A stretch of 64,000 nucleotides of DNA, taken from positions 372,001-436,000 of the forward strand of contig NZ_JAOYTH010000003.1 of assembly GCF_025847205.1 (NCBI RefSeq), given 5' to 3'. The DNA is from Pararhizobium sp. YC-54. Lineage in GTDB: Bacteria > Pseudomonadota > Alphaproteobacteria > Rhizobiales > Rhizobiaceae. The notes beneath the pieces are model-generated. The model was not told where the DNA came from. It did no database searches and saw nothing but the letters and a program-made list of their open reading frames with translations. The translations under genes were made by a program, and so were the position numbers. Each line of letters starts with the position of its first letter. Position 1 is the stretch's first letter. Shown one piece after another: positions 6,913 to 10,123 of the stretch.

Positions 6913-8670
6913 TCAGTTGGTCTGTTTTACACCAAGCGCCAGGGTATCGGCGAGAACGCGGTAGATATCGCTTTCTTCCATATAGCCCTTGAAGTCTTCG
7001 GCACCCGGACCGGCTGCCTGAAGAACCACGTCATCAACGGAATGCACGCCGCTATCGCCGCTCTTCGGGATATTGCCCTGCACGAAGACGGCGCCGGGAA
7101 CATCCTTGTAGGCTTCGTTGGCGATGTATTCCTTCTTTTCGTTCTGGATCGCCGGAACGAAAGGCCCATCGAGCTTCGGGCGGAAGGTCTCGTAGTGATC
7201 CGGACCGTTATTGGCGCTCAGGAACAGGCGGCGCGTGACGTCGATCTTGTCCGGATAACCATCCTTGTTTTCGTCGGTATAGTTCGGGAATCCGGCTTCG
7301 GCGTATGTCCCGACCTTTTCGCGCATTTCGGTGCCCGGCTTTTCGTCATCGACGGTGCCGATGATCGAAACGCCGTGGGCATGGTCACCGGTGACGACGA
7401 CCAGCGTGTCGGGGTGGCTCGCGGCGAACTCGCGGGCAACGCCGACCGCCTTGTCGAACTCGATGGTTTCGACGAGGGCGCGATCCCAGTCCAGCGGGTG
7501 GGACATCTTGTCGATGTTGGCGCCTTCAACCATCAGGAAGAAGCCTTCGTCATTCTTCGACAGTTCGCCGAGCGCAGCCTTGGTCATGTCGACCAGGCCC
7601 GGCTGGTTCGGGAACTTTTCGACCGTGCCCTTTTTCAGAAACTCGCGGTCCAGCGCCGTATCCATGTTGCCGGTGTGAAAGAGGCCGAGAATCTTGCCGG
7701 TGTTGGTGCCGGTTGCGGTCTGCAGCTCGGACTTGTCGGTGGCAAGCGTGTAGCCGGCTTCCTGGAACAGCTTGATATAGTCCTTATCGTCCTTGCGCTT
7801 CGAGCCGGGGATATCCTTGCTGAGGAAATAGGCCGATCCACCGCCGAGGACGACATCGGGCTTGACGTCGAACATCATGCCGACGATCTGTTCCTTGTCG
7901 GCGCGCTTGCGGGTATGGGCAACGACGGCAGCCGGCGTCGCATCCTCGACCTCGGCATTCGAGACGATGCCGATCGACTTTTTCGTCTGGCGGCGAATGG
8001 CTTCGGCGATTGTTTCCACCTTCGGGTCGTCGAGGGTGTCGGGCGTGCGGTCGCCATAAACGCCAAGCGCGTTGACGGCGGTCTTGTGGCCGGTCATGTA
8101 GGCCGACATGGTGTTGGCGCTGTCGGTGGCGATCGCTTCGGTCGATGAGGTGCCGACGAAGGCCATATGGTCGAGGTCGTCCATGTTGAGGCGGCCATTG
8201 GCCTTACCTTCGGTCATGCCCTTGGACATGATGCGGGCGCCGGTGCGATGGGCAACGGACAGGCCGTCGCCGAGCAGGAAGATGATGTTCTTGGCCTTCT
8301 GGGTTTCGCCGGTGTTGTAGACGTCCCAGGTGACAGACTTCGATTCTGCGCCGGCGGTCACTTCGATCTTGTAGGCGCCTTCGGTCGGCAGGATGAGACC
8401 GCGAGCGATAACGGCCGAGCCCAGGATCTTGTCTTCCTTGCCTTTTTCTTCGGCAACGAATTCAGCTTCCTTGCCCAGCACAGTCTTGTAGTCCTGACCG
8501 TTGACGGTGATCTTGACGTCTTCCGGCTTGACCACGGACTTGAACTCGACCTTGAAGTCGAACGGCGAACCGGCAAGAATCGTTGCACGATCGAGCGGAT
8601 AGACGGTGGCGGCCTGTGCGGCCCCAGCGAGGAATGTCGTGGCGGCAAGCGCCGACAGAAGCATACGCAT
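6913..8670 (-). CDS. phoA: Alkaline phosphatase, PhoA family, with extra N-terminal domain
   Basis: Exported phosphomonoesterase that frees phosphate in the periplasm. Signal peptide at residues 1-21 ending AGAAQA. An additional beta-rich domain occupies about 22-120, and the metalloenzyme core starts at NIIFLLGDG (metal ligand D135). The nucleophile is Ser184 in TDSANTMSA, and later metal ligands are seen in VEGANIDKMSH and TGDHAHG. At 585 residues it is longer than E. coli PhoA because of the N-terminal domain. The ATG follows AAGGGGG. A Pho box 56 bp upstream predicts induction by PhoB in phosphate starvation. A zinc-type ABC/DUF3299 operon follows on the same strand, notable because the enzyme family needs zinc. 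Confidence 0.93.
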   Translation of the reverse strand: MRMLLSALAATTFLAGAAQAATVYPLDRATILAGSPFDFKVEFKSVVKPEDVKITVNGQDYKTVLGKEAEFVAEEKGKEDKILGSAVIARGLILPTEGAYKIEVTAGAESKSVTWDVYNTGETQKAKNIIFLLGDGLSVAHRTGARIMSKGMTEGKANGRLNMDDLDHMAFVGTSSTEAIATDSANTMSAYMTGHKTAVNALGVYGDRTPDTLDDPKVETIAEAIRRQTKKSIGIVSNAEVEDATPAAVVAHTRKRADKEQIVGMMFDVKPDVVLGGGSAYFLSKDIPGSKRKDDKDYIKLFQEAGYTLATDKSELQTATGTNTGKILGLFHTGNMDTALDREFLKKGTVEKFPNQPGLVDMTKAALGELSKNDEGFFLMVEGANIDKMSHPLDWDRALVETIEFDKAVGVAREFAASHPDTLVVVTGDHAHGVSIIGTVDDEKPGTEMREKVGTYAEAGFPNYTDENKDGYPDKIDVTRRLFLSANNGPDHYETFRPKLDGPFVPAIQNEKKEYIANEAYKDVPGAVFVQGNIPKSGDSGVHSVDDVVLQAAGPGAEDFKGYMEESDIYRVLADTLALGVKQTN

Positions 8671-8725: not shown

Positions 8726-8743
8726 ATGACATCGGCATGACAC
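8726..8743 (-). promoter_or_regulatory. Pho box (PhoB operator) of the alkaline phosphatase gene
   Basis: On the minus strand the site reads GTGTCATGCCGATGTCAT: two TGTCAT half-repeats spaced by five bases, matching the 18-bp PhoB consensus (CTGTCAT-N4-CTGTCAT) except at the first base of each unit and in the spacer. About ten bases downstream lies GACTATTGC as a possible -10. It ends 56 bp from the phosphatase start codon. Confidence 0.8.
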
Positions 8744-8806
8744 TTCAGTAACGTTTTGACGGCAGGGGTGCGGCACGCCTTCCTGCCGGGCGTTCTCAGC
8801 TTTCTG

Positions 8807-8834
8807 TTGACTCTACGTCAAAACCGCGTATGAG
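8807..8834 (+). promoter_or_regulatory. Candidate sigma-70 promoter for the asd leader and asd
   Basis: TTGACT at 8807-8812 and TATGAG at 8829-8834 with a 16-bp spacer. It would start the transcript shortly before the leader ORF. Found by eye only. Confidence 0.4.
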
Positions 8835-8856
8835 CAGCAGCGGAAAAGGAACCGCC

Positions 8857-8976
8857 ATGCACCGTTTTGGTTACGCCATCGCTGCGCTGATCGCCCCGGC
8901 ATTCGCTGCCGGGCGGGTTCGTTCTTTCTCGATTTTTTCCAAAACAACGGCCAAAACGACGACGAAAACCGTCTGA
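8857..8976 (+). CDS. Putative Thr/Lys leader peptide of asd
   Basis: A 39-residue ORF ahead of asd. AAAGGA lies six bases before its ATG. The first 28 residues are unremarkable, but the last eleven read KTTAKTTTKTV: six Thr and three Lys codons out of eleven, immediately before the stop. Asd makes the common precursor of threonine, lysine and methionine, so this is the classic layout of a translation-sensing attenuator peptide such as thrL. Strong hairpins at 8998-9014 and 9020-9046 follow. No poly-U run follows them, so control might act on translation initiation instead. The function is inferred; the ORF, its ribosome binding site and its codon content are directly visible. Confidence 0.6.
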   Translation: MHRFGYAIAALIAPAFAAGRVRSFSIFSKTTAKTTTKTV

Positions 8977-8997
8977 CGTCTCTGGCCACCGCTCTCT

Positions 8998-9046
8998 CCC
9001 CGGTACGGCCGGGGACCTGAAACCCGCGCCCTTGGCCGGCGGGTTT
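8998..9046 (+). promoter_or_regulatory. Tandem hairpins in the asd leader RNA
   Basis: Hairpin A: CCCCGG / CCGGGG at 8998-9014 with a 5-nt loop. Hairpin B: AAACCCGC / GCGGGTTT at 9020-9046, with further internal pairing. Just before them CTCTCT (8992-8997) is complementary to AGAGAG (9075-9080), the probable asd Shine-Dalgarno region. Also GTCTCT (8978-8983) can pair with AGAGAC (9065-9070). These pairings could compete and respond to a ribosome stalled on the leader peptide. Confidence 0.5.
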
Positions 9047-9088
9047 CTCCCCAAAGCCCCGCGGAGAGACAGAAAGAGAGCAAAGACA

Positions 9089-10123
9089 ATGGGTTTCAAG
9101 ATTGCCATCGTAGGTGCGACCGGAAACGTCGGCCGCGAAATGCTGAATATCCTGGAAGAGCGCGGCTTTCCGGCTGACGAAGTCGTGGCACTGGCCTCGG
9201 CCCGCAGCCAGGGCACTGAAGTTTCCTTCGGCGACAAGACGCTGAAGGTGAAGAACCTCGAGAATTACGACTTCTCCGACACCGACATCTGCCTGATGTC
9301 GGCCGGCGGCGCCGTATCGCTCAAGTGGTCGCCAAAGATCGGCGCGCAAGGGTGCGTCGTCATCGATAACTCGTCCGCCTGGCGCTACGACCAGGACGTG
9401 CCGCTGATCGTTCCGGAAGTAAACCCGGACGCCATCACCCAGTTCACCAAGCGCAACATCATCGCCAACCCGAATTGCTCGACCGCGCAGCTCGTGGTCG
9501 CGCTGAAGCCGCTGCATGATTTCGCCAAGATCAAGCGCGTCGTCGTTTCGACCTACCAGTCGGTTTCCGGCGCCGGCAAGGAAGGCATGGACGAACTGTT
9601 CAACCAGACCCGCGCCGTCTTCGTCGCCGATCCGGTCGAATCGAAGAAGTTCACCAAGCGCATCGCCTTCAACGTCATCCCGCACATCGATGTGTTCATG
9701 GAGGACGGCTATACGAAGGAAGAGTGGAAGGTTCTGGCCGAGACCAAGAAGATGCTAGACCCGAAGATCAAGGTCACCTGCACCGCCGTGCGCGTTCCGG
9801 TCTTCATCGGCCATTCGGAATCGGTCAACATCGAATTCGAAAACGAGATCAGTGCCGACCAGGCCCGCGACATTCTGCGCGAAGCGCCGGGTTGCCTCGT
9901 CATCGACAAGCATGAGAACGGCGGCTACATCACGCCTTACGAAAGCGCTGGCGAAGACGCGACCTATATTTCGCGTATCCGCGAAGACGCAACTGTCGAG
10001 AACGGCCTGAACATCTGGGTCGTTTCCGACAACCTGCGCAAGGGCGCCGCCTTGAACGCCATCCAGATTGCCGAGCTTCTCGTCAATCGCGGCCTCATCA
10101 AGGCGAAGAAGCAGGCCGCCTGA
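9089..10123 (+). CDS. asd: Aspartate-semialdehyde dehydrogenase
   Basis: Cytoplasmic NADP-dependent enzyme reducing aspartyl phosphate to aspartate semialdehyde, the branch point to lysine/diaminopimelate, threonine and methionine. The 344-residue product begins with the Rossmann motif VGATGNVGREML and has the catalytic Cys130 in NPNCSTAQLV; substrate-binding segments such as AFNVIPHID are also present. The ATG at 9089 is chosen over 9032 because translation then starts at MGFKIAIVGATG and AGAGAG lies about eight bases upstream. It follows a Thr/Lys-rich leader peptide, which suggests end-product control. A terminator follows. Confidence 0.97.
   Translation: MGFKIAIVGATGNVGREMLNILEERGFPADEVVALASARSQGTEVSFGDKTLKVKNLENYDFSDTDICLMSAGGAVSLKWSPKIGAQGCVVIDNSSAWRYDQDVPLIVPEVNPDAITQFTKRNIIANPNCSTAQLVVALKPLHDFAKIKRVVVSTYQSVSGAGKEGMDELFNQTRAVFVADPVESKKFTKRIAFNVIPHIDVFMEDGYTKEEWKVLAETKKMLDPKIKVTCTAVRVPVFIGHSESVNIEFENEISADQARDILREAPGCLVIDKHENGGYITPYESAGEDATYISRIREDATVENGLNIWVVSDNLRKGAALNAIQIAELLVNRGLIKAKKQAA

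Follow-up and report, generated by a model that had tools for sequence, protein, structure and literature searches.

A putative threonine/lysine-codon leader peptide and coevolving RNA helices upstream of asd in Rhizobiales: a candidate translational attenuator

Asd, the aspartate-semialdehyde dehydrogenase, performs a step shared by the routes to lysine, threonine, methionine, isoleucine and diaminopimelate. In enteric bacteria, the thr operon leader thrL encodes a peptide rich in Thr and Ile codons and controls thrABC via an intrinsic terminator. In ermC-type translational attenuation, it is the position of the ribosome on a leader ORF that sets access to the next ribosome-binding site, with an arrest that is drug-induced. 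For S. meliloti, trpL/rnTrpL is outlined as the tryptophan attenuator, its 14-aa peptide being leaderless (PMC10117765), while the asd RNA motif RF01732 is assigned to Lactobacillales (PMC2864571). Closest to the locus considered here is the SEP5 sORF of S. meliloti (RefSeq 2017), which is reported to be translated, includes six Thr and three Lys codons in its final part and was proposed in 2023 as a possible leader peptide (PMC10117765). The passages on SEP5 site it in the 5′ UTR of a gene named there as aspartate dehydrogenase, state its conservation as confined to Sinorhizobium, and give no RNA structure or mechanism (PMC10117765), whereas the leader described here extends over many families and is accompanied by coevolving helices. 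In three Sinorhizobium loci (L073, L075 and L080), the ORF before asd ends in the tail SKTTAKTTTKTV, with six Thr and three Lys, and because this is the same Thr/Lys composition in the same place, SEP5 is, judging by codon counts and position, very likely the S. meliloti version of the asd leader ORF. A sequence-only reading of the locus had known of no such attenuator for asd in rhizobia; SEP5 precedes it as far as the leader peptide is concerned. We regard as new the conservation across many families, the coevolution of four RNA segments (S1-S4), the preference for AAA as the Lys codon and the contrast with terminators found outside the order, none of which was found described in the open-access literature; the same literature yielded no asd control of this kind in rhizobia, agrobacteria, Ochrobactrum and their relatives, save the one S. 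meliloti remark.

The window, by which we mean the whole 64,000-nt stretch of Pararhizobium sp. YC-54 DNA that was analysed, carries asd on its forward strand at 9089-10123, with the ATG at 9089 and with matches to NF011456 (530 bits) and TIGR01296 (476 bits) that both exceed the cut-off. Upstream on the same strand, at 8857-8976, lies a leader peptide ORF of 39 codons that ends at a TGA stop (8974-8976), is preceded by the Shine-Dalgarno sequence AAAAGGA (8844-8850) and encodes the tail KTTAKTTTKTV, where Thr and Lys account for nine of the final 11 residues, in agreement with the sequence-only reading. The control codons, AAA ACA ACG GCC AAA ACG ACG ACG AAA ACC, occupy 8941-8970 (+), with AAA used at all three Lys positions. 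In essence, a short ORF rich in codons for the products of the pathway sits directly 5′ of a biosynthetic gene, which is the general arrangement of an amino-acid attenuator. A promoter-like site, TTGACT-16 nt-TATGAG, is recognizable 5′ of the leader ORF at 8807-8834 (+), and transcription is therefore expected to start upstream of the leader, near 8841. A generic sigma-70 scan reported no promoter at the window's locus, and 14 of the 28 loci inspected, which are hand-picked and counted without a chance control, show a loose TTGAC-box pattern 49-52 nt 5′ of the leader ATG. Further upstream, an alkaline-phosphatase-like ORF runs divergently at 6913-8670 on the reverse strand, with a PRK10518 match below the cut-off.

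The leader stop is separated from the asd start by 112 nt of GC-rich sequence, in which the four segments are all read on the forward strand. Immediately 3′ of the stop is S1 (GUCUCUGGCC, 8978-8987), followed by S2 (CUCUCUCCCCGG, 8992-9003), whose 5′ part can pair with S4 and whose 3′ part can pair with S3, and by S3 (GGCCGGGGAC, 9007-9016), which can pair either with S1 over 10 pairs or with S2 via 9009-9014. A variable hairpin V (GAAACCCGC...GCGGGUUUC) is predicted at 9019-9047 (+), and is followed by S4 (GGAGAGA, 9063-9069), which pairs with S2 at 8993-8999 and is located 20-26 nt 5′ of the asd ATG. The presumed asd Shine-Dalgarno sequence, AGAGAGC at 9075-9081 (+), is an alternative partner for S2 in the Rhizobiaceae consensus fold. 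Two GC-rich hairpins had been placed in this stretch by the earlier reading: the one at 9019-9047 is present in the window's own predicted fold, while the one at 8998-9014 appears in a consensus fold computed from 20 relatives. In the minimum-energy structure predicted for the window's locus this second hairpin is missing, and S3 pairs instead with a C-rich stretch just past 9047. Taken alone, the 127-nt stretch has a folding energy that is mildly unusual (z of -1.73), and the structural case therefore rests on comparison.

Set against the described systems, the asd leader resembles thrL in encoding a peptide rich in codons for the end products of its pathway, and differs from it in reading Thr and Lys, in preceding asd, in lacking a terminator and in having no Rfam match; Thr_leader itself gave no match at the gathering level in the window, nor at E up to 5 in 8740-9150. 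With trpL/rnTrpL it would share leader-peptide attenuation within the same bacterial group, but it appears to have a 5′ UTR with a Shine-Dalgarno sequence, and no U-run terminator follows. The RF01732 motif and the asd leader are both tied to asd, the former coming from another phylum, and RF01732 was matched neither in the window at the gathering level nor in 8740-9150 at E up to 5. At the gathering level, no Rfam family matched in the window or in the loci of seven relatives, and a relaxed search of 8740-9150 returned three weak matches only, all to unrelated families. The likeness to ermC lies in the position of the leader ribosome, which would govern access to the downstream ribosome-binding site; the differences lie in the amino-acid codons of the asd leader and in the order of the segments (S1:S3 vs S2:S3/S2:S4).

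The sequence-only reading had proposed comparing asd loci across the order for conserved Thr/Lys codons and covarying stems, and both are found. Within the 300 nt searched upstream of asd, an ORF with at least six Thr or Lys in its last 12 residues is present at 79 of 80 named loci. Among 2868 control windows, each 300 nt long and drawn from both strands of the sequence flanking these loci, a single one contains such an ORF, and its presence upstream of asd is therefore not due to chance; the antisense strand of the asd upstream regions holds no Thr/Lys-tailed ORF. Loci of the window's genus all carry the tail (25/25, the window included), each with at least eight Thr or Lys in the last 12 residues, while the threshold of at least six is reached by 57 of 111 additional loci within the order and by 3 of 26 that belong to other orders of the class. 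When the 47 sampled families of the order are considered, the leader is found in 22, five Thr/Lys in four more, and none in 21. The asd upstream stretches compared are part of all asd matches (80 in the order and 60 in the class, besides loci gathered otherwise), and those that could not be anchored at the asd start were dropped (L153, L156, L184, L198, L203, L314 and L341). A covariance model built on 34 relatives has a single match in the window's genome, upstream of asd, this search finding no second copy of the leader RNA there, and in the family to which the window belongs it has a match in 135 of the 199 genomes. In all six genomes comparable by asd coordinates (G000, G005, G024, G047, G090 and G122), the top match runs up to the asd start. 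Weak second matches, which span model positions 34-131 only and may be chance, occur at G047:C1138:41991-42081, G346:C1:1830606-1830706 and G411:C56:275483-275583. One member of this family with a genome of 1.5 Mb (L202) lacks a Thr/Lys leader ahead of its asd, which may reflect a loss through genome reduction.

Coevolution of the segments was assessed with an alignment-free test, where the duplex energy of each clade's own segments is compared with that of segments swapped between clades over 2000 permutations. Across 35 clades of the order, no permutation was as good for S1:S3 (z of -6.2) or for S2:S4 (z of -3.7), while S2:S3, the weakest of the three, had a z of -2.5 with 20 of 2000 permutations as good, or 33 of 2000 with non-overlapping windows. 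The other 11 segment pairs, including S1:S4, S1:SD, S2:SD and the codon region with S1, showed no coevolution in these clades (at least 297 of 2000). Adding three out-of-order loci to make 38 clades gave 0, 1 and 3 of 2000 for S1:S3, S2:S4 and S2:S3, respectively, and at least 179 for the others. The S1:S3 pairing is exemplified by GUCUCUGGCC:GGCCGGGGAC in the window, UUUCCCUUAUA:UAUGAGGGAGA in L124 and GUGCCUCUCGU:ACGAGGGGCGC in L115, and S2:S4 by UCUCUCC:GGAGAGA in the window, AUGCUCUCCCG:UGGGAGAGCAU in L134 and CGCUCCCC:GGGGAGCG in L115. The per-locus segment search skipped leader-to-asd segments shorter than 60 or longer than 160 nt; L100 and L173 were excluded by length from a set of 162 sequences, which was then thinned to 89. 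The coevolving helices include the mutually exclusive S1:S3 and, less surely, S2:S3, in addition to S2:S4.

In a MAFFT alignment of 34 sequences, 90.2% of the cells of S1:S3 plus S2:S4 are paired. Double changes occupy 15 cells against a shuffled mean of 6.9 (0 of 500 shuffles), a comparison in which values above the shuffles can also arise from relatedness, and five pairs show a double change against 3.0 in the shuffles (24/500). Within 20 Rhizobiaceae, the S1-S4 helices hardly vary and no double changes are seen. Shuffling of single sequences gave mixed results, mostly 0-8 of 100 for S1:S3 in Rhizobiaceae and mostly 15-40 of 100 for S2:S4 there, with many other clades being unremarkable. The best S1, sought as a gapless helix in a 22-nt search window, begins no more than 8 nt from the stop in 23 of 35 clades, and 1 nt from it in the window, while S4 ends 7-37 nt 5′ of the asd ATG across clades, usually off the Shine-Dalgarno sequence. 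Two further pairings were considered and set aside. A classic hairpin of the control codons (GGCC, 8949-8952) with S1 has columns that are nearly invariant in the Rhizobiaceae alignment, yet it lacks cross-clade coevolution, and direct masking of the Shine-Dalgarno sequence by S1 or S2 is permitted by the folds without support from coevolution.

We consider it fairly probable that 8857-9088 is a ribosome-sensing attenuator of asd with a translational output. Here, transcription would begin near 8841 and the leader ORF would be translated. With charged tRNA-Thr and tRNA-Lys at hand, the ribosome would reach the stop codon and cover S1, upon which S2 would pair with S3 and S4, setting a structure against the asd ribosome-binding site and keeping the translation of asd low. 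Under a shortage of either amino acid, the ribosome would instead stall on the AAA/ACN run with S1 free, and S1 would pair with S3 once S3 is made, keeping S2 in the loop, leaving S4 and the ribosome-binding site open and yielding more Asd. A ribosome at a stop codon would mask an S1 this near, and stalling on the Thr/Lys codons farther 5′ would leave it uncovered. What the data bear out in this scheme is a conserved ORF with a conserved Thr/Lys tail, the coevolution of S1:S3 and S2:S4 and, less surely, of S2:S3, the absence of strong terminators among the same-order loci scanned and, in four families of other orders, their presence on comparable asd leaders. That the ribosome stalls, which way the switch works and that asd is controlled at translation are what we infer, with the output in this order probably being translational. 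In essence, a tiny Thr/Lys-rich gene and a folding RNA, common in root-nodule bacteria and their relatives, probably let a stalled ribosome raise asd under shortage.

Strong U-run terminators are found in none of 92 same-order asd leaders (0.20 expected), and weaker terminator-like sites in five of them (3.4 expected). At the window's locus, a terminator scan found nothing between 8976 and 9089, and there is no U-run after the hairpins, just as had been read from the sequence. An intrinsic terminator, as in a classical transcription attenuator of the trp/thr type, was accordingly rejected for this order, being absent both there and, in its strong form, from the 92 loci. The idea that the mechanism may be translational, also raised by the sequence-only reading, fits this absence, while energetics across loci fail to bear it out, and it stands short of proof. 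A weak terminator-like site does occur at 8901-8918 (+), inside the leader ORF and 5′ of the control codons, with one more on the opposite strand.

Outside the order, 15 asd leaders with Thr/Lys tails were gathered from seven families, three of them (L145, L164 and L165) from 26 loci and 12 more from 76; the second set numbered 79 loci with three same-order ones included, and its thirteenth Thr/Lys leader, L269, belongs to the window's order and was excluded. A strong terminator lies between the leader and asd in eight of the 15 (0.10 expected), which come from four families (L164 and L290-L292; L165; L304 and L306; L312), while no U-run terminator was detected in seven (L145, L282, L283, L284, L303, L305 and L307). 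In six of the eight (L164, L290, L291, L304, L306 and L312; duplexes read by eye), the best S1 duplex falls on the 5′ arm of the terminator, which is the antiterminator position, and a free S1 should therefore mean expression there; in L165 and L292 it falls elsewhere on the terminator hairpin. The leaders inside and outside the order may share a common origin. We put forward tentatively, at somewhat less than even chances, that a Thr+Lys asd attenuator belongs to several alphaproteobacterial orders and that the Rhizobiales line lost the terminator and gained S4, its sensor becoming a translational switch.

With no strong terminator among the 92 same-order loci and with an S4 that coevolves with S2, translational attenuation is the first choice and Rho-dependent control its main rival. 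Under this rival, the sensing is the same and the output transcriptional: once the leader is fully translated, the C/U-rich S1-S2 stretch would load Rho, or a GC-rich hairpin lacking a U-run would terminate, with S1:S3 counteracting either. The stretch after the stop appears pyrimidine-rich in most of the same-order loci inspected (by eye, uncounted), some out-of-order leaders carry transcription terminators, and the energetics give a translational output no general support. However, the terminator counts of the order, strong and weaker alike, speak against it, and it leaves unexplained why S4, located 5′ of the start codon, should coevolve with S2, so that we hold it to be unlikely, if the most serious of the alternatives.

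For translational attenuation, our preferred reading, the predicted energetics are mixed. At the window's locus, an RNA that ends at S3 is predicted to fold as S1:S3; at most other loci of a hand-picked set of 29, the co-transcriptional measure is high for S1:S3 and S2:S3 alike, and it therefore discriminates at a few loci only. Opening of -25..+3 at the window's locus takes 6.8 kcal/mol with S1:S3 forced versus 15.2 with S1 masked, forcing S1:S3 costs 7.2 kcal/mol relative to the ensemble, and the full-length RNA favours S2:S4 whether S1 is present or not. Among 23 hand-picked loci, the S1:S3 state eases the opening of -25..+3 in 13 and of -14..+3 in eight. When S1 is masked at 48 hand-picked loci, S2:S4 increases in 19 and decreases in 13 (p of 0.25), and the accessibility of -25..+3 rises in 18 and falls in two (p of 3e-5), the latter being opposite to the switch model. 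Equilibrium energetics was consequently set aside as proof of switching, the three approaches being indecisive and partly contrary, and since it gives the switch no direction, the direction is taken from the comparison with the terminator-bearing leaders.

That comparison also bears on a second rival, where the direction is reversed, with a pseudoknot of S1:S3 and S2:S4 as the repressed state, or where the peptide itself is the sensor, through nascent-chain arrest on KTV-stop. The two helices share no bases, both coevolve and could coexist as a pseudoknot, and the rise in predicted site accessibility upon S1 masking agrees with a reversed switch, but S1 sits at the antiterminator position in six of the eight terminator-bearing leaders. 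As for the peptide, the terminal Val is nearly constant, being found in 82 of 83 Rhizobiaceae-type tails, but in other families the last residue is A, G, T, I or yet another, and there is therefore no fixed arrest motif. We judge both forms of this rival, taken together, to be quite improbable.

The N-termini of the leader peptides differ among genera while the Thr/Lys tail is kept. At the freest control position of the 83 Rhizobiaceae-type tails (xxxAKTT...), T occurs 40 times, K 32, M 10 and A once, and two further positions vary mostly between T and I, the rows of these counts, as of same-clade genomes, not being independent. T, K, M and I all derive from aspartate semialdehyde, and the substitutions in the tail appear to stay mostly among aspartate-family residues. 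The attenuator layout recognized by the sequence-only reading is borne out by these patterns, with a tail conserved as the N-terminus drifts and substitutions within the aspartate family, as well as by the coevolving alternative helices. Lys codons in the leader tails are AAA in 72 cases and AAG in 16 (38 clades), versus 64 AAA and 1747 AAG within 80 asd genes and 161 AAA and 454 AAG in 38 long, mechanically picked ORFs of the window. That the ORF is instead a functional small protein whose location before asd is incidental is very improbable, since, although tagged SEP5 was detected in the soluble fraction of S. meliloti (PMC10117765), the N-terminal part is unconserved and the tail conserved, the peptide has no NCBIfam match, and at two Hoeflea-type loci it measures 10-11 residues from the nearest ATG, longer in-frame starts existing, and consists almost entirely of control codons.

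A leader that counts both Thr and Lys codons would place a metabolic branch point under RNA-level control by two amino acids. Set beside the terminator-bearing asd leaders outside the order, it offers a case in which the shift of an attenuator from transcriptional to translational output could be examined. The S1-S4 arrangement defines the exact mutations with which the asd switch can be tested. In the window's genome, no clear similar leader was found near the hom, AA-kinase, dapA-like and thrC genes; homoserine dehydrogenase has two matches there (L248 and L249), neither with a Thr/Lys leader. The scan around hom, AA-kinase, dapA-like and thrC genes did bring up two short ORFs with six Thr/Lys in their last 14 residues, in L253 and L261.
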